This document shows, one piece after another, positions 30,051-61,701 of a stretch of 64,000 bases of DNA. Made by a program: the position numbers and the translations under genes. Below the pieces are notes generated by a model that worked only from the letters and a program-made list of their open reading frames with translations, did no database searches and was not told the DNA's origin. The stretch is from Porticoccaceae bacterium (GTDB lineage Bacteria; Pseudomonadota; Gammaproteobacteria; Pseudomonadales; Porticoccaceae): positions 124,001 to 188,000 of the forward strand of contig JAGPUQ010000002.1 in the NCBI GenBank assembly GCA_018069525.1. The letters run 5' to 3'. The stretch's first letter is position 1; every line of letters starts with the position of its first letter.

Positions 30051-31802
30051 GTGGATCATCTTTCTGGTGGTGAAATCGTCATTCGCGCACTTCGTGATGC
30101 GGGCGTCCGACATTTGTGGGGTTATCCGGGTGGTGCGGTATTGCACATCTACGATGCTCTGTTTCGGCAAGACGATGTCAAACATATTCTGGTGCGTCAC
30201 GAGCAGGCCGCGACTCACGCTGCCGATGCCTACGCCCGCGCTACGGGTGAAGTAGGTGCGGTACTCGTTACCTCCGGCCCCGGTGCGACCAATGCCATTA
30301 CAGGTATTGCCACAGCTTATATGGATTCCATTCCTATGGTGGTGGTTTCCGGGCAGGTGCCACAGGACAAAATTGGTGATGACGCCTTCCAGGAGACCGA
30401 TATGATCGGCATCTCCCGTCCCATTGTGAAGCACAGCTTTCTGGTTAAGCGTGCCGAAGACATTGCCGAGACCATCGCTAAAGCGTTTTATCTTGCGGGC
30501 ACCGGTCGCCCCGGCCCAGTGGTGGTCGATATTCCCAAGGATGTCACTGACCCTAACCATAAGGTGGCGTATCACTATCCGGAAAAAATCAAAATCCGCT
30601 CTTACCAACCGACGGTTCGAGGCCATTCCGGACAGATTCGCCGTGCAGTCTCCGCCTTGCTCGGTGCCAAGCGCCCTATCATCTATGCCGGTGGCGGCGT
30701 TGTATTGGGTAATGCCTCAAAGCAGTTGACTCAGTTAGCGCAAATACTCAATTACCCAGTGACTAATACCTTAATGGGGCTGGGTGGTTATCCCGGTAGT
30801 GATCGACAGTTTCTTGGTATGCTCGGTATGCACGGTACCTGTGAAGCCAATATGGCGATGCACGATGCCGATGTTATTTTGGCGGTGGGTGCGCGCTTCG
30901 ATGACCGGGTGACCAATACCCCGGATCGCTTCTGCCCAAATGCTACCATTATTCATATCGATGTCGATCCTTCGACCATTTCTAAGACTGTGCAGATCGA
31001 TATTCCCATTGTAGGGGCTTGCGACGCAGTACTGGACGAAATGCTCACTCTGGTCGAGACCGAGCTTGGAAGCAAAAACTCTGAGCGCCCGGATCGCGAG
31101 GCGCTGGCGGAGTGGTGGGCGCAAATTGATGCCTGGCGTGAGCGTCACGGTATTTATACCGACTCGCGTTATGAGCCCAGCGTTGGGTCGGTGATCAAAC
31201 CGCAAGATGCCGTCAAGATGCTGTACAAGGTCACCGAGGGCAAAGCCTACGTCACCTCCGATGTTGGCCAGCATCAGATGTTTGCCGCTCAGTATTATTT
31301 GTTCGACAAGCCTCGGCAGTGGTTTAATTCTGGTGGTCTGGGCACGATGGGCTATGGTTTACCCGCTGCTATGGGTGTACAAATGGCCTTGCCCGATGCG
31401 GATGTCGCCTGCGTGACTGGCGAAGGCAGTATCCAAATGTGTATTCAGGAGCTTTCGGCCTGCACTCAGCACCAGTTGCCGGTGAAGATTATTAACTTAA
31501 ATAATCAATCCCTGGGCATGGTGAGACAGTGGCAGGATATGCAATACAGCGGTCGCTATTCGCAAATTCTTTATGAGGATTCGTTGCCCGATTTTGTAAA
31601 ATTGGCCGAGGCCTACGGGCATGTTGGTATTCGGGTTACGCATATCGACGAACTGGAAGATAAAATGCGCGAGTGCTTTAGTTTGAAGGATCGGGTGGTA
31701 TTTATGGATATCCAGGTTGACCCCAGCGAGCACGTCTATCCGATGCATGTGGCACCGGGTTCGATGCGCGATATGTGGTTAAGCAAAACGGAGCGCACCT
31801 GA
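30051..31802 (+). CDS. ilvI: Acetolactate synthase large subunit
   Basis: This 583-residue thiamine diphosphate enzyme makes acetolactate and acetohydroxybutyrate, the first shared step of Val, Leu and Ile synthesis. The catalytic Glu is residue 51 in VRHEQAATH. The FAD/PP domain centre has [13 protein letters not shown], and the ThDP-binding motif is [11 protein letters not shown] to [12 protein letters not shown]. The start is GTG 30051 with GAGG about 12 nt upstream; the N terminus ([15 protein letters not shown]) fits the family. The stop overlaps the ilvH start. Confidence 0.96.
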
Positions 31803-32293
31803 TGAGACGTATTCTTTCAGTACTGATGGAAAACGAACCGGGCGCATTGTCTCGCGTGGTCGGATTATTTTCCCAGCGCGGCTATAATATCGACACCCTA
31901 ACGGTAGCACCGACCGACGATAGCACCTTATCTCGTCTGACCTTGACGACCCGCGGTGACGACCGAGTGATCGAGCAAATTACTAAGCAACTCCACAAGT
32001 TAATTGATGTAGTTAAAGTAAATGATCTCTCGGAAGGCCCGCATATCGAGCGCGAGTTATTGCTGGTTAAAGTGCGAGCGTCGGGTGCCCAACGTGCCGA
32101 AATTAAACGTTGCGTGGATATTTTTCGCGGGCAGATCGTCGATGTTGGCGTTAGCACCTATGTGATTCAGGTGGCGGGTAGCAGTGACAAGCTGGATGCC
32201 TTTGTAGGGTCCCTCGGTGAAGCGGGTATTTTAGAGGTGGTACGTTCTGGTGTATCCGGTATCATGCGCGGCGAAAAAGCCCTGCGGGTGTGA
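31802..32293 (+). CDS. ilvH: Acetolactate synthase small (regulatory) subunit
   Basis: This 163-residue protein has the same length as E. coli IlvH. The N-terminal ACT domain begins [30 protein letters not shown] in pieces (1-30), the valine-sensing fold; the C-terminal half follows LLLVKV. The ATG overlaps the ilvI stop as TGATG, so the subunits are made by coupled translation. It binds valine and stimulates and inhibits the large subunit. Confidence 0.96.
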   Translation: MRRILSVLMENEPGALSRVVGLFSQRGYNIDTLTVAPTDDSTLSRLTLTTRGDDRVIEQITKQLHKLIDVVKVNDLSEGPHIERELLLVKVRASGAQRAEIKRCVDIFRGQIVDVGVSTYVIQVAGSSDKLDAFVGSLGEAGILEVVRSGVSGIMRGEKALRV

Positions 32294-32373
32294 GTTCTCC
32301 AGCTGGTGTTGGTAGCGTTAACTGTTTACAAAGCTAATTGTTTACAGAGTTAGCGTAAGGCTTTTATTTTTAT

Positions 32374-32399
32374 ATTTCATTTAACAATTTCATTTAACA
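32374..32399. repeat. Tandem duplication, 2 x 13 bp, upstream of ilvC
   Basis: ATTTCATTTAACA occurs at 32374-32386 and again at 32387-32399, immediately before the ilvC ribosome region. Upstream, TGTTTACA occurs at 32323-32330 and 32339-32346. Confidence 0.9.
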
Positions 32400-32413
32400 A
32401 GTAGATCGGGTAA

Positions 32414-33439
<1,026 letters not shown>

Positions 33440-33458
33440 GTAATACGTTTGCTTGCAG

Positions 33459-33488
33459 AAAAGGGCAGACTTTGGTCTGCCCTTTTTT
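33459..33488 (+). terminator. Rho-independent terminator after ilvC
   Basis: Twelve-base arms AAAAGGGCAGAC and GTCTGCCCTTTT around a TTTG loop, running into a T-tract. It ends the ilvI–ilvH–ilvC transcription unit. Confidence 0.93.
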
Positions 33489-33828
33489 ATTGGTGTTTTA
33501 ATCCAGGTTGTTGGCTTAAAGACCAGCCGGCCAATGACTTGTGAACTCGCCGTGGACTTAAGGAAGAAGGATGTTTATTCTTCCTGTGTTTTTGATAGAG
33601 CGGTGTCGGGTAGCACGATTTATGAATAAGCCCGGGGCAAGCGATGAGTTGAGAGCTCGTCGGTGCACTTGATGAAATTCTGGGAGCGAGTATTGGTATC
33701 GTATTCTTTGTTTATTTAGTTTGCTAGATACGAACACTAAATATTGAGTTGCGTTTAATACTGATTTAAGTGATGGAATAAAACGTACCCGATAGCCGAA
33801 TGCCACCTTTTCCCTAACGTTGATCCTT
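33489..33828. other. Gap between ilvC terminator and FAD dehydrogenase
   Basis: About 340 bp without a credible gene. It holds a stem-loop with 8-bp arms, AGGAAGAA (33561-33568) and TTCTTCCT (33578-33585), followed by GTGTTTTTG, possibly a second weak terminator. I see nothing else specific. Confidence 0.4.
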
Positions 33829-35460
33829 ATGCTGCGACTCAATGATATTAAATTACCCCTCGATCACAGCGATGCTGATCTGACGCAGGCCATTGTTAAC
33901 AAGCTGACTATCGAAGCCGATGATCTGTTGAGCTGTAGCGTGTTCAAGCGCAGTCACGATTCCCGTAAAAAAAATAATATCCTGCTGGTTTATCAGTTGG
34001 ACGTTACTCTTACCGAAGAACTCAGCAACAACGTGCTGAAAAAATTCGCCGGACAATCGTTTGTTAGGCCGAGCCCGGACACCCGTTATCATTTTATGGC
34101 TCAGGCCGCCGCGGATTTTCCAAACGCGCAACAACAACGTCCCCTCGTCATCGGTTTTGGCCCCTGCGGTATTCTGGCGGCGCTGGTGTTGGCACAGATG
34201 GGCTTGAAACCGATTGTGCTGGAGCGTGGCCAAGATGTAAGGCAACGTACTCAGGATACCTGGGGCTTTTGGCGCAAGCGCAAATTGAACACCGAATCGA
34301 ACGTGCAGTTTGGCGAGGGCGGGGCGGGCACATTTTCTGACGGTAAGCTCTATAGCCAGGTAAAGGACAAGCGCTATTTAGGCCGTAAGGTATTAAGCGA
34401 ATTTGTCGCAGCCGGTGCCCCGGAAGAAATTTTAACTCTGAGCAAGCCCCATATTGGCACCTTTAAATTGGTCAAGATGGTGGAAAACATGCGCGCGGAA
34501 ATTATCCGTCTGGGCGGCGAAATTCGTTTTGATTGCAAGGTCGAAACCATTCATCGCGAAGCGGATGATAACGGTGGCCAGGTTACCGGGGTAACTTTGG
34601 CTAACGGCGAAGTACTACAAAGCCGCCATATTGTGTTGGCCATCGGCCACAGTGCCCGCGATAGTTTTGATATGTTGTTGAAGCAAGGCTTCTATATTGA
34701 GGCGAAACCGTTTTCCATTGGTTTTCGCATCGAGCATCCGCAGTCGGTTATTGATACGGCGCGCTTCGGTGCGCAGGCCGGACATCCGATTTTGGGCGCG
34801 GCGGATTATAAATTGGTGCATCACTGTGCTAATGGTCGCAGTGTTTATAGTTTTTGCATGTGTCCCGGCGGCACTGTGGTGGCGGCAAGCTCGGAAGAGG
34901 GGCGTGTAGTGACTAACGGTATGTCGCAGTACTCTCGCAACGAACGCAACGCTAACGCGGCTGTTGTGGTCGGCATTAACCCCGAGCAGGACTATCCCGA
35001 GCATGTGTTGGCGGGCATCGACCTGCAGCGGGATCTCGAAGCCCTGGCGTATCAATTAGGTGGTGAAAACTACAACGCTCCGGCTCAACTGGTGGGGGAT
35101 TTTTTACAGGATAAACCATCGACACAATTGGGTAGTGTTACCCCGTCCTATCAGCCGGGTATTACTCTTGGGGATTTATCGAAAGCCTTGCCTGCCTTTG
35201 CGACAGCGGCTATTCGCGAAGCGATTCCGGCCTTCGATAAAAAGATAAAAGGCTTTGCTATGGCTGACGCTATTTTAACGGGTGTCGAAACCCGAACCTC
35301 GTCGCCGATTTGCATCAAGCGCGGGAAAGATTTTCAAAATATAAACACCCGGGGCTTATATCCCGCGGGGGAGGGCGCGGGCTATGCGGGTGGCATCCTG
35401 TCCGCAGGAATAGACGGCATTAAAGTCGCCGAAGCACTGGCCGTGGATATATTAAAGTAA
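33829..35460 (+). CDS. FAD-dependent dehydrogenase, COG2509 type
   Basis: This is a 543-residue flavoprotein from ATG 33829; a TTG three codons earlier is less likely. It begins MLRLNDIKLPLDH. The dinucleotide-binding motif is VIGFGPCGILAAL (about 103-115), followed by GEGGAGTFSDGKL. The C-terminal FAD contact is GLYPAGEGAGYAGGILSAG in pieces (about 508-526). The family is common in bacteria, and its substrate is unknown to me. It is monocistronic, 108 bp before pssA. Flavoprotein class sure, role open. Confidence 0.85.
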   Translation: MLRLNDIKLPLDHSDADLTQAIVNKLTIEADDLLSCSVFKRSHDSRKKNNILLVYQLDVTLTEELSNNVLKKFAGQSFVRPSPDTRYHFMAQAAADFPNAQQQRPLVIGFGPCGILAALVLAQMGLKPIVLERGQDVRQRTQDTWGFWRKRKLNTESNVQFGEGGAGTFSDGKLYSQVKDKRYLGRKVLSEFVAAGAPEEILTLSKPHIGTFKLVKMVENMRAEIIRLGGEIRFDCKVETIHREADDNGGQVTGVTLANGEVLQSRHIVLAIGHSARDSFDMLLKQGFYIEAKPFSIGFRIEHPQSVIDTARFGAQAGHPILGAADYKLVHHCANGRSVYSFCMCPGGTVVAASSEEGRVVTNGMSQYSRNERNANAAVVVGINPEQDYPEHVLAGIDLQRDLEALAYQLGGENYNAPAQLVGDFLQDKPSTQLGSVTPSYQPGITLGDLSKALPAFATAAIREAIPAFDKKIKGFAMADAILTGVETRTSSPICIKRGKDFQNINTRGLYPAGEGAGYAGGILSAGIDGIKVAEALAVDILK

Positions 35461-35569
35461 TGCCTGCTCTCAACAGGGCTATTAATATGTAACGTAGACA
35501 GGTTTAGCCGCTTGGCCTCATAATAGCCGCGAATATCAAGCCTTAGTGCGCAAGTCTGAGTAAATTGTA

Positions 35570-36463
35570 ATGTCTGACCCCGTAGTTCCTTTTGACAAAA
35601 AGAGCACCGATAAAAACGGTACTGCTCCAGGCAGTGTCGATACAAATAGTGCGGATACCAACAGCACCGATGAAACCGTAACGACAGGCATTGATCACGA
35701 CCGCTCTCATGACCAGAACCACGACCAGAACCAAGATCAGAGCCACGATAATGATCGGGTGCGGCGCAAAGGTGTTTATTTGCTGCCCAATTTACTGACT
35801 ACCGGTGCGTTGTTTGCGGGGTTTTATGCCATTCTTTCGGCTATGGATGGTAATTTCAGCTTTGCTGCTATCGCTATTTATGTGGCGATGTTATTCGACG
35901 GACTGGATGGCCGAGTCGCTCGACTAACCAATACCCAGAGTGAGTTTGGCGTGCAATACGATAGCCTGTCCGACATGGTGTCCTTCGGGGTGGCCCCGGC
36001 GGTGCTGATGTTCAGCTGGATTTTGGAGAGCCTGGGTAACTTTGGTTGGGCGGCCGCGTTTATTTATGCCTCCTGTGCCGCACTGCGCCTGGCGCGTTTC
36101 AATGTACAGGTGGGTTCAGCCGATGAACGCTTCTTTATCGGTCTGGCGAGCCCGGCTGCGGCGGGTCTAGTGGCCGCTATGGTGTGGTTTGCTCACGGCA
36201 GTGAGGCCACGATAATCCTGGCGATTAGCGCAGCGGTGGTCACGGCAGCGGCGGGCTTACTGATGGTCGTCAACATCCGTTACCACAGCGCTAAAGCAAT
36301 AGATTTGAAGGGCCGTGTGCCGTTTGTAGTGATTCTAGGGGTGGTTATGGTACTGGTGGTGATTAGTATTGATCCGCCACGAGTCTTACTCAGTATGGCG
36401 ATTCTTTACGCGCTTTCCGGCCCCAGTCTGTGGGTATGGACAAGAATTAAAGGTAGGCAATAA
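35570..36463 (+). CDS. pssA: CDP-diacylglycerol–serine O-phosphatidyltransferase
   Basis: This 297-residue integral membrane enzyme (PssA type II) makes phosphatidylserine. The CDP-alcohol signature Asp-Gly-X2-Ala-Arg-X8-Gly-X3-Asp-X3-Asp is complete: D113, G114, A117, R118, G127, D131, D135. About eight hydrophobic helices follow. The first 65 residues are hydrophilic and low complexity, with degenerate repeats of Asp-Gln-Asn-His; this tail is longer than usual. It is located near ilvC and leuA, as in other gammaproteobacteria. Confidence 0.94.
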   Translation: MSDPVVPFDKKSTDKNGTAPGSVDTNSADTNSTDETVTTGIDHDRSHDQNHDQNQDQSHDNDRVRRKGVYLLPNLLTTGALFAGFYAILSAMDGNFSFAAIAIYVAMLFDGLDGRVARLTNTQSEFGVQYDSLSDMVSFGVAPAVLMFSWILESLGNFGWAAAFIYASCAALRLARFNVQVGSADERFFIGLASPAAAGLVAAMVWFAHGSEATIILAISAAVVTAAAGLLMVVNIRYHSAKAIDLKGRVPFVVILGVVMVLVVISIDPPRVLLSMAILYALSGPSLWVWTRIKGRQ

Positions 36464-36538
36464 TAAGCAGGTGTTATGAGGGCTTGGCAGGGCCGCCATA
36501 ATTTGTTTGAATAGGCGCTAGAAGGTTTTTAACCTCGC

Positions 36539-36577
36539 AACTTAATATCAGAACTTAATACCACAAGTTAATACAGA
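36539..36577. repeat. Three direct 13-bp repeats before the leu leader ORF
   Basis: AACTTAATA at 36539 and 36552 and AAGTTAATA at 36565 recur with an exact 13-bp period. They end 4 nt before the leader ATG. They may be duplications or binding sites. Confidence 0.75.
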
Positions 36578-36581
36578 GCAA

Positions 36582-36674
36582 ATGACAAACAGTAACGCAG
36601 CCAATTTATTATTCCTCCGTGAGCTTCCTTGCTCCGGCGCGCTGCTGCGTACTGATCTCCTGCTGCTGCCCTGA
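36582..36674 (+). CDS. leuL: leuA leader peptide, leucine rich
   Basis: ATG 36582 to TGA 36672 encodes 30 residues of which ten are leucine: Leu at 9, 10, 12, 15, 21, 22 and 26-29. The four consecutive codons CTC CTG CTG CTG come just before the Pro and stop. That is the hallmark of a leader peptide in which ribosome stalling on Leu codons senses charged tRNA-Leu. It ends 112 nt before the leuA start. The ribosome site is weak (AGAG). The symbol is by analogy with enteric leuL. Confidence 0.75.
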   Translation: MTNSNAANLLFLRELPCSGALLRTDLLLLP

Positions 36675-36709
36675 GGGGCATCTATCGTACGACATTCTTT
36701 AATTTTTTT
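36648..36709 (+). terminator. Candidate attenuator terminator of leuA
   Basis: CGTAC (36648-36652) and GAT (36654-36656) can pair with ATC and GTACG (36684-36691). This encloses an inner stem TGCCC/GGGCA (36667-36671 with 36676-36680). A T-rich run ends at 36709, including seven consecutive T. The inner stem overlaps the leader stop. The distance from stem to T-run is larger than in a standard terminator, so the exact fold is uncertain. Confidence 0.45.
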
Positions 36710-36786
36710 GCATCCTGCTTCCTACCGGAGCAGAATTCAGTTTATTGTGCCTACCCGAAGTTCGGGTTATCCAGGAGTTAAGACCC

Positions 36787-38331
36787 ATGGACAAACAACG
36801 CCTTATTATTTTTGATACCACCTTACGCGACGGCGAACAAAGCCCCGGCGCCGCCATGACCAAAGAAGAAAAGCTCCGGGTAGCCAAATCGCTGGAGAAG
36901 CTGAAGGTAGACGTGATTGAGGCGGGTTTTGCGACCTCGAGCCCCGGTGATTTTTCGGCGGTTAAAAGCATTGCCGAAGCCATTAAAGATTGCCGTGTGT
37001 GCAGTTTAGCCCGCACCATGCCCAGCGATATTGAGCGGGCCGCAGAAGCGCTGGTCGATGCCGTTGCACCGCGTATTCATACCTTTATTGCGACCTCGCC
37101 GATCCATATGGATTACAAACTGCAAATGACGCCGGAGCAGGTGTTTGATCAGGCCATCGGTGCGATAAAAATTGCACGCAACCTGGTCGACGACGTGGAG
37201 TTTTCACTGGAAGACGGCAGTCGCTCTGAGTTTGAGTTTATGTGTCGCATCGTTGAAGCTGCTATTAATGCAGGGGCGGGCACTATTAATATTCCCGATA
37301 CCGTGGGTTATGGCACGCCGGGTGAATACGGTGAAATGATTGGCCGGGTAATTAACAACGTGCCGAACTCCGATAAAGCCGTATTTTCCGTACATTGCCA
37401 CAACGACTTAGGTCTTGCGGTCGCCAACTCCCTGTCGGCGGTATTACACGGCGCGCGTCAGGTGGAATGCACCATAAACGGTTTGGGTGAACGTGCCGGT
37501 AATGCCTCGCTGGAAGAAATTGTGATGGCGATTCGCACCCGGCCGGATATTTATCCGGTGGAAGTAGGCATCGACAGCACGCAGATTGTGCCGACCTCGA
37601 GATTAGTTTCCACGGTTACCGGCTTTCCGGTGCAGCCCAACAAGGCTGTGGTTGGCGCTAATGCCTTTGCCCACGAGTCGGGTATTCATCAGGACGGCGT
37701 ACTGAAGTATCGCGAGACTTACGAAATTATGCGAGCCGAGGATGTGGGCTGGAATACCAATCGTATTGTACTTGGCAAGCTTTCAGGCCGGGCGGCGTTT
37801 TCGGCGCGGCTCGAAGACCTGGGTATCAGCTTCGACAATAAAGCCGATTTGAATCGAGCCTTTACTCGCTTTAAAGAACTTGCGGATAAAAAACGTGAAA
37901 TCCACGACGAAGATTTACAGGCCCTGGTGTCCGACATTCAAATTGGCGAATCCGCCGAAGACCTCGCTTTGGTCGCGATGGATGTTTCCAGTAAAACCGG
38001 GCGCGCACCCCATGCGGAATTAACTTTGCGCAGCCACGGTAACGATCACTCGGTCTCTGCCGAAGGTGATGGGCCAGTTGATGCGGTATTTCGTGCTATC
38101 GAAAAACTGGCGGACAGCGGTACCGAGCTTAAACTTTATTCGGTTAATGCTATTACCACCGGTACCGATTCCCAGGGCGAAGTCACGGTGAGGCTGGAGA
38201 AAGGCGGGCGCATTGTGAACGGACAGGGCGCGGATACCGATATTTTGGTGGCCAGTGCCAAGGCCTATATTCATGCGCTTAACTTGCTGGGTAATCCTGA
38301 TCGTGTGCATCCGCAACTGGGTGGTGTTTGA
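36787..38331 (+). CDS. leuA: 2-isopropylmalate synthase
   Basis: This 514-residue enzyme makes 2-isopropylmalate, the committed step of leucine synthesis. The catalytic TIM barrel shows [13 protein letters not shown] near the start, [13 protein letters not shown] with the metal His residues, and [10 protein letters not shown]-terminal LeuA dimer domain (about 385-510) gives leucine feedback. ATG 36787 with AGGAG 9 nt upstream is the right start. Upstream in-frame codons from 36745 would add residues encoded by the leader and are rejected. Confidence 0.96.
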
Positions 38332-61624: not shown

Positions 61625-61701
61625 TGGTGTCCCGGAGAGGATTCGAACCTCTGACCTGCCCCTTAGGAGGGGGCCGCGCTATCCAGCTGTGCCACCGGGA
61701 C
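61625..61701 (-). tRNA. tRNA-Arg (anticodon CCU)
   Basis: The 77-nt gene includes an encoded CCA end (61625-61627). Acceptor arms GTCCCGG and CCGGGAC pair fully; the T arm contains GGTTCGAATCC. The anticodon loop CTCCTAA is on a GCCCC/GGGGC stem and gives the anticodon CCT, reading AGG. It lies between rsmE and the J-protein gene. Confidence 0.97.

Follow-up and report, generated by a model that had tools for sequence, protein, structure and literature searches.

A Leucine-Codon Leader with a Stop-Codon-Spanning Hairpin Precedes leuA in Gammaproteobacteria: A Candidate Leucine-Sensing Element

Introduction

That leader peptides control leucine synthesis in enteric bacteria is textbook knowledge, and the classical attenuator of the leu operon, of the E. 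coli leuL type, is represented in Rfam as Leu_leader. In trp-type attenuators, the 1:2 stem contains the stop region, and in tnaC, a Rho-dependent leader attenuator, tryptophan is sensed.

Further systems have been described, and the statements made on them here refer to the accessible parts of the cited articles. For leuA of Shewanella, a classical attenuator with a terminator and an antiterminator was proposed (PMC2659441). Studies of actinobacteria described the LEU element, leader peptides without terminators, and ilvB leaders that overlap terminators (PMC1262725), and an upstream ORF was linked to Rho in the toiL/topAI system (PMC12121999). In a survey of terminator-based attenuators (PMC2965389), leuA is absent from the main text, and a term search of the accessible text of PMC8297930 returned no mention of leuA. 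The literature searched contained no description of a leuA leader with a hairpin at its stop codon; older surveys (Vitreschak 2004, Lopatovskaya 2010) may hold one.

Here, a leader upstream of leuA was analyzed computationally in a 64,000-nucleotide stretch of DNA from a Porticoccaceae bacterium (the window), together with its relatives. Like the classical leu attenuator, the locus has a leucine-codon leader before leuA and a small hairpin that holds the stop region, as the 1:2 stem does; unlike it, the locus gave no Rfam match, no separate U-tract terminator in the window, and no antiterminator signal, and its leuA lies apart from leuC. The likeness to the Shewanella leuA attenuator, as set out in the accessible text, comprises the Leu leader, the stalling logic, and a covarying anti-antiterminator stem before leuA, whereas the terminator and antiterminator proposed there are both unclear here (PMC2659441). 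The actinobacterial LEU element likewise has a leader with a Leu run before leuA, whose Leu codons can pair with the leuA Shine-Dalgarno (SD) box, but the accessible description gives it a conserved pseudoknot, the feature at the present locus is a hairpin spanning the stop (hairpin I), and the LEU element belongs to a different phylum (PMC1262725). In the actinobacterial ilvB leaders, as here, branched-chain codons overlap a hairpin that may end transcription; the poly-U run reported there is, in contrast, found in only a minority of the present relatives (PMC1262725, accessible part). With the Rho-dependent leaders tnaC and, as far as its accessible text goes, toiL/topAI (PMC12121999), the locus would share the principle that the position of the ribosome on a short upstream ORF decides on premature termination, no intrinsic terminator being involved; those leaders sense tryptophan or antibiotics, whereas the codons here are for leucine, and the Rho step here is hypothetical.

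The sequence comparisons described below give roughly even chances to the reading that the leader and hairpin I form a leucine-sensing element of leuA, with Rho as its likeliest off-step. A wider proposal, put forward tentatively and itself somewhat doubtful, is that this is a widespread gammaproteobacterial leuA element of undescribed architecture, in which the stop-spanning hairpin would read whether the ribosome stalls on the Leu codons or finishes, and would act as a switch without a standard terminator or antiterminator, via Rho or access to the ribosome-binding site. The layout is different from the enteric one and well conserved in marine and environmental Gammaproteobacteria, without an Rfam match and mostly without a U-tract. 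Should Rho or translation prove to be the output, searches that demand a U-tract would have undercounted leader attenuators, and the stop-spanning hairpin offers a sharp handle for tests.

The Leader ORF and leuA

The leader ORF (36582-36674, plus strand) comprises 30 codons, and its predicted product is MTNSNAANLLFLRELPCSGALLRTDLLLLP. The translation agrees with an earlier note on this DNA, which had described a 30-codon ORF with ten Leu codons before leuA; in order, these are TTA TTA CTC CTT CTG CTG CTC CTG CTG CTG. The last four, CTC CTG CTG CTG (36657-36668, plus strand), are the putative control codons. They form the uninterrupted run that the earlier note reported, but this run does not directly abut the stop as it had stated, one Pro codon (CCC) intervening before TGA. 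The two strands of the window hold 415 ATG ORFs with lengths of 15-60 codons. Three of them consist of at least one third Leu and two contain LLLL, and LLL no more than two codons from the stop occurs in the leader ORF alone.

The first Leu pair, TTA TTA, had been thought to use rarer codons and to provide a possible second stalling point. In the 28 ATG ORFs of at least 250 amino acids, TTA makes up 18.3% of the Leu codons, compared with 8.4% for CTA and 9.7% for CTT, and the idea of TTA as a rare codon was dropped. The second stalling point is likewise unsupported, TTA not being rare and codons 9 and 10 having, by eye, no counterpart in an alignment of 23 near loci.

The downstream gene, leuA (36787-38331, plus strand), encodes a 2-isopropylmalate synthase of 514 amino acids, which scored 715 bits against TIGR00973 leuA_bact (cut-off 598.7) and 864 bits against NF002087 (cut-off 729); several NCBIfam leuA models were above cut-off. 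Upstream of the leader lie pssA and ilvC, the latter with Pfam KARI domains, and the ORFs at 30051-31802 and 31775-32293 before ilvC correspond, by eye, to ilvB/I and ilvN/H. From 30051 to 38331, ilvB/I, ilvN/H, ilvC, a gene for an FAD protein, pssA, the leader, and leuA all run in one direction. While leuA is near the ilv genes, it is far from leuC, which is found on another contig (C13 versus C18), as expected from the earlier statement that the two are separate.

A Hairpin Spans the Leader Stop Codon

The strongest feature of the leader, absent from the earlier description, is hairpin I (TGCCC-TGAG-GGGCA, 36667-36680, plus strand), which consists of five pairs with the TGA in its loop and is part of the minimum free energy (MFE) fold of 36560-36790. 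The stem-loop had been placed after the ORF; this is wrong, as hairpin I overlaps the ORF end. The leader as a whole folds with ordinary stability (z -0.97). A 15-mer containing hairpin I occurs once in the genome, even when one mismatch is allowed.

Conservation of the hairpin was assessed in leaders chosen without reference to structure, by the presence of at least four Leu among the eight codons preceding a stop located 60-330 nt upstream of leuA. This choice yielded 95 of 164 sequences, which were reduced to 47 representatives. In 43 of the 47, the stop was spanned by a perfect stem of at least four pairs, and in 40 by one of at least five pairs, whereas shuffling of the 16 nt after the stop over 300 rounds left a mean of 7.0 of 47 with a stem and a maximum of 16. 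The representatives lacking the stem are L011, L057, L129, and L157, although L011 does have hairpin I, another stop having been picked there. The stems covary, with variants including CTGCC/GGCAG, CTGCGC/GCGCAG, TGCCGC/GCGGCA, and GCTGCC/GGCAGC, among others. The outermost pair is missing in L014, L135, L137, and L144, in which TGCCC faces GGGCT. RNAalifold analysis of 22 loci returned hairpin I only.

The end of the leader peptide is itself recurrent, with LLP before the stop being very common among the leaders. This would suit a TnaC-like arrest of the nascent peptide at the Pro-stop position, with the LLP C-terminus as arrest sequence, but leaders ending in LR, LPV, LPF, LPR, LPH, and LPSGSH also occur, and in these the hairpin is kept. 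Hairpin I is retained despite a Pro to Arg change in L059 (CTGCGC/GCGCAG), despite an extra codon before the stop in L028, L069, L035, and L075, and with the stop lying beyond the hairpin in L036, L072, L079, L104, and L109. Its persistence through these changes indicates that the RNA stem, rather than a Pro-stop peptide end, is conserved. Peptide arrest thus appears highly improbable, and it was discarded as a candidate, Pro and the stop position varying while hairpin I stays.

Conservation of the Leader in Relatives

The sample comprised 80 named contigs selected by LeuA similarity and the upstream stretches of genomes of the same family, as overlapping sets; 92 of 112 same-family genomes matched the window LeuA at E ≤ 1e-100. 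The resulting 166 sequences include the window, its two copies (L081 and L082), and organisms present twice. Conservation in relatives had been named beforehand as a check of the leader, and the core pattern was found in 116 of these 166 leuA upstream regions rather than being absent from them.

Without the two window copies, 114 core loci remained, which were reduced to 51 representatives below 70% identity. Counting upstream from the Pro position, Leu occupies codons -1 to -5 in 51, 48, 30, 26, and 31 of the 51, a count that is in part built in because the core pattern fixes Leu at -1 and needs at least two Leu in the six codons upstream. Synonymous variation is not built in, and four to six different Leu codons were found at each of positions -2 to -5, with four at codon -2. 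An in-frame start (ATG, GTG, or TTG, of which TTG also encodes Leu) without an intervening stop was present in 51 of 51.

The core was absent by pattern from the other 50 of the 166 upstream regions. Two of these, L041 and L156, are truncated, and L089 apparently starts inside leuA; the rest may truly lack the leader.

A profile of 44 positions (R1) was trained on the leuA leaders and used on 369 whole genomes of the class. R1 contains sequence only and no base pair, presumably because hairpins of differing loop length were misaligned. Matches at E ≤ 0.1 were found in 234 genomes, many of them surely by chance. LeuA is encoded at 26 of the 30 loci returned by the search, the window's own counted, and is lacking at the matched loci L189, L190, and L192; the match L181, which lies amid phage-like genes (ORFs judged by eye), is probably a chance one. 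The best 78 places (E ≤ 0.005, window excluded) lie in 77 genomes, in 70 of which LeuA was separately located. Of these places, 53 are upstream of leuA on the same strand, at a distance of 85-272 nt (median 128), and 25 are not; the first 13 by rank are all upstream of leuA, as are 27 of the first 32. The search ignored LeuA placement, yet the training organisms are partly shared with the 369 genomes, the cores of L179, L182, and L184 being the same as those of L044, L040, and L056, and for this reason the test is not fully independent.

As judged from these comparisons, the Leu codons, hairpin I, and their place before leuA are kept across Gammaproteobacteria, and the predicted sensing of leucine via the terminal Leu codons is well supported.

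A Predicted Leader Promoter

Upstream of the leader, a -35-like box (TTGGCA, 36484-36489, plus strand) and a -10-like box (TTGAAT, 36507-36512, plus strand) are separated by 17 nt, with a TG one base upstream of the latter (36504-36505). Of 67 Porticoccaceae leaders, 43 carry TTGGCA-17-TTGAAT and a further one has TTGGCA-17-TTCAAT, compared with a mean of 0.08 and a maximum of 2 in shuffled controls. Spacings from 16 to 18 were permitted in the scan, and all 44 have 17. Five loci outside the family (L042, L049, L065, L073, and L078) carry TTGGCA-17-TATATT at a similar place. In the window's genome, TTGGCA-17-TTGAAT has a single exact occurrence and a second one with one mismatch.

Most simply, 36484-36512 is the predicted promoter of the leader. 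The second position of TTGAAT is T where A is usual, which is odd for sigma-70, and a general promoter scan of the window did not report the pair of boxes; given the -10 box without A at position 2, the site may instead be one for a regulator.

Proposed Mechanism

From the predicted promoter, a leader RNA would be transcribed, with the four Leu codons at the end of its 30-codon ORF. When charged Leu-tRNA is short, the ribosome would stall on these codons, the 5′ arm of hairpin I would stay single-stranded, and leuA would be on. Ribosome footprint sizes are such that a ribosome stalled on the Leu codons would cover the 5′ arm of hairpin I. With ample leucine, translation would run to the stop, the ribosome would leave, and hairpin I would form; the formed hairpin would mark the leucine-present state, with leuA expression lowered.

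In the window, leuA would be turned down by something other than ordinary intrinsic termination, and Rho, with the G-poor RNA behind hairpin I as its target, is weakly favored. Rho is preferred because no U-tract adjoins hairpin I there and because the family has little G in the RNA that follows; close behind as off-steps would come weak termination at hairpin I and masking of the SD sequence. In 97 leaders, the region 17-37 nt from the core start contains 10% G and 28% C. Measured over 60 nt, the C>G skew exceeded the locus's own 95th percentile in 55% of 71 loci (longer than 3 kb), compared with 15% at random places, and the C>G bubble of the window reaches the 89th percentile only. For Rho to be the off-step, its loading site would have to be hidden while the ribosome stalls, and no enrichment was seen for pairing between the G-rich strand of hairpin I and the RNA downstream.

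Hairpins, the T-Run, and Termination

Hairpin I is followed by an inter-hairpin stretch (36681-36714, plus strand) that is G-poor in relatives and holds a run of seven T (36703-36709). This run begins 22 nt after the hairpin I stem and precedes hairpin II (CTGCTTC-CTACC-GGAGCAG, 36715-36733, plus strand), behind which there is no clean U-tract. The earlier note had read the ORF, a stem-loop, and the T-run as an attenuator; lying 22 nt behind hairpin I and ahead of hairpin II, the T-run does not form an ordinary intrinsic terminator with the hairpin, and hairpin I with this T-run was rejected as one. Hairpin III (ACCCGA-AGT-TCGGGT, 36753-36767, plus strand), identified from the sequence and the MFE fold, lies just before the leuA ribosome-binding site; at its site, near genera seem, by eye, to carry hairpins of other sequence.

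Intrinsic termination at or around hairpin I itself could nevertheless be the off-step, with the same sensing and with the ribosome on the Leu run blocking the terminator directly, and the overlap of the last Leu and Pro codons with the 5′ arm of hairpin I is consistent with this. The U-rich tail was assessed as the T count in 8 nt starting 0-8 nt behind hairpin I in 77 representatives, 5 of 82 having been dropped as the stem end was not found. At least five T in 8 were present in 21 of the 77, compared with 12.5 expected, and at least six in 9 of the 77, compared with 3.7 expected, with none of 300 shuffles as high. A lax terminator scan, similarly, found sites in 27 of 97 leaders, where shuffles gave 10.1. 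Hairpin I came first in 18 of these; in the other nine, which include the window, the first site lay elsewhere, and the window's only match, a lax one, is at hairpin II. The U-rich tail behind hairpin I is thus enriched, which favors weak intrinsic termination there in part of the family, yet it is confined to a minority: 68 of the 77 lack it, and in the window 4 of the 8 nt next to the stem are T. Long T-rich stretches follow hairpin I in L135 (in which the stretch is TTCTTTCTTTTTT), L101, L108, and L111, and in these four loci, hairpin I could itself be a terminator.

In the window, such a terminator would consist of a longer alternative fold (approximately 36646-36694, -15.3 kcal/mol), followed by ACATTCTTTAATTTTTTT. 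This fold has an imperfect U-rich stretch directly behind its stem and is a borderline case; a comparable outer stem is present in L083, of the same genus, but it is absent in L084, and only broken pieces of it are found in L087. With evidence on both sides, intrinsic termination at hairpin I is regarded as unlikely, though worth retaining as an account of the off-step.

A classical three-stem attenuator, in which an antiterminator competes with a separate intrinsic terminator, would also be in keeping with a leader whose stop-spanning stem resembles that of trp-type attenuators. Such an attenuator has been proposed for Shewanella leuA (PMC2659441, accessible part). Antiterminator pairing was scored between the 3′ strand of hairpin I and the next 55 nt in 82 representatives; the score was 11.74, compared with 12.09 for permuted and 12.34 for shuffled sequences, and 97.6% of permutations were as high or higher by this crude, ungapped score. 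Antiterminator pairing was accordingly rejected as a general feature, there being no enrichment in the 82 representatives. In the next 60 nt, a local hairpin stabler than the mean of eight shuffles was found in 64 of the 82 (mean -6.3 versus -3.7 kcal/mol), but the sequence behind hairpin II is, by eye in the 82 representatives, mostly A-rich and not U-rich. The classical arrangement is thus considered improbable for this leader. In many leaders from outside the window's family, among them L051, L053, L035, L193, and L186, the second hairpin, located 20-50 nt past the point at which hairpin I begins, has the recurring sequence CCTGGCGAGG and behind it a form of AAACGCA. Rfam, searched at 36440-36900, gave no family up to an E-value of 5.

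The attenuation logic proposed in the earlier note is therefore supported in its sensing half, a conserved leader with Leu control codons before leuA, but not in its classical output half, with no clear terminator in the window and no antiterminator enrichment; the U-rich tails behind hairpin I in a minority of relatives speak partly in its favor.

Pairing of the Leader with the leuA Shine-Dalgarno Sequence

The leuA SD sequence, CAGGAG (36772-36777, plus strand), is complementary to CTCCTG (36657-36662) in the leader, and the two are paired in the window MFE fold. Translational control could operate through such pairing, the CU-rich Leu codons pairing with the SD region of leuA until a stalled ribosome frees it, in the manner reported for the actinobacterial LEU element, with Rho perhaps ending the untranslated transcripts. 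Matched duplexes of leader and SD sequence were indeed stronger than permuted ones (p 0.0045; p 0.03 within GC quintiles; n=36), and a further test gave p 0.011 (n=39). However, the control duplexes shift as well (n=36), with p 0.045 for reversed leaders (0.06 within GC quintiles) and p 0.011 for a window upstream of the SD sequence (0.24 within GC quintiles), and Leu codons of the form CTN are in any case complementary to purine-rich sites.

With the Leu run masked, the SD sequence became more accessible by prediction in 45 representatives, going from 0.185 to 0.297 (Wilcoxon p 4e-5), compared with 0.193 for a control mask. The gain exceeded 0.2 in just 12 of the 45, versus 4 of the 45 with the control mask, and in the window, accessibility stayed flat, from 0.198 to 0.199. 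SD masking is accordingly thought a little less likely than intrinsic termination at hairpin I, and Rho-dependent termination after hairpin I is kept as the preferred off-step.

Additional Observations

Across the whole window, Rfam at the gathering threshold returned no Leu_leader, and its single match was a tRNA gene (61628-61701, minus strand). In L048, from Endozoicomonas, the LeuA frame appears to start with 12-bp tandem repeats, which encode ENQI units.
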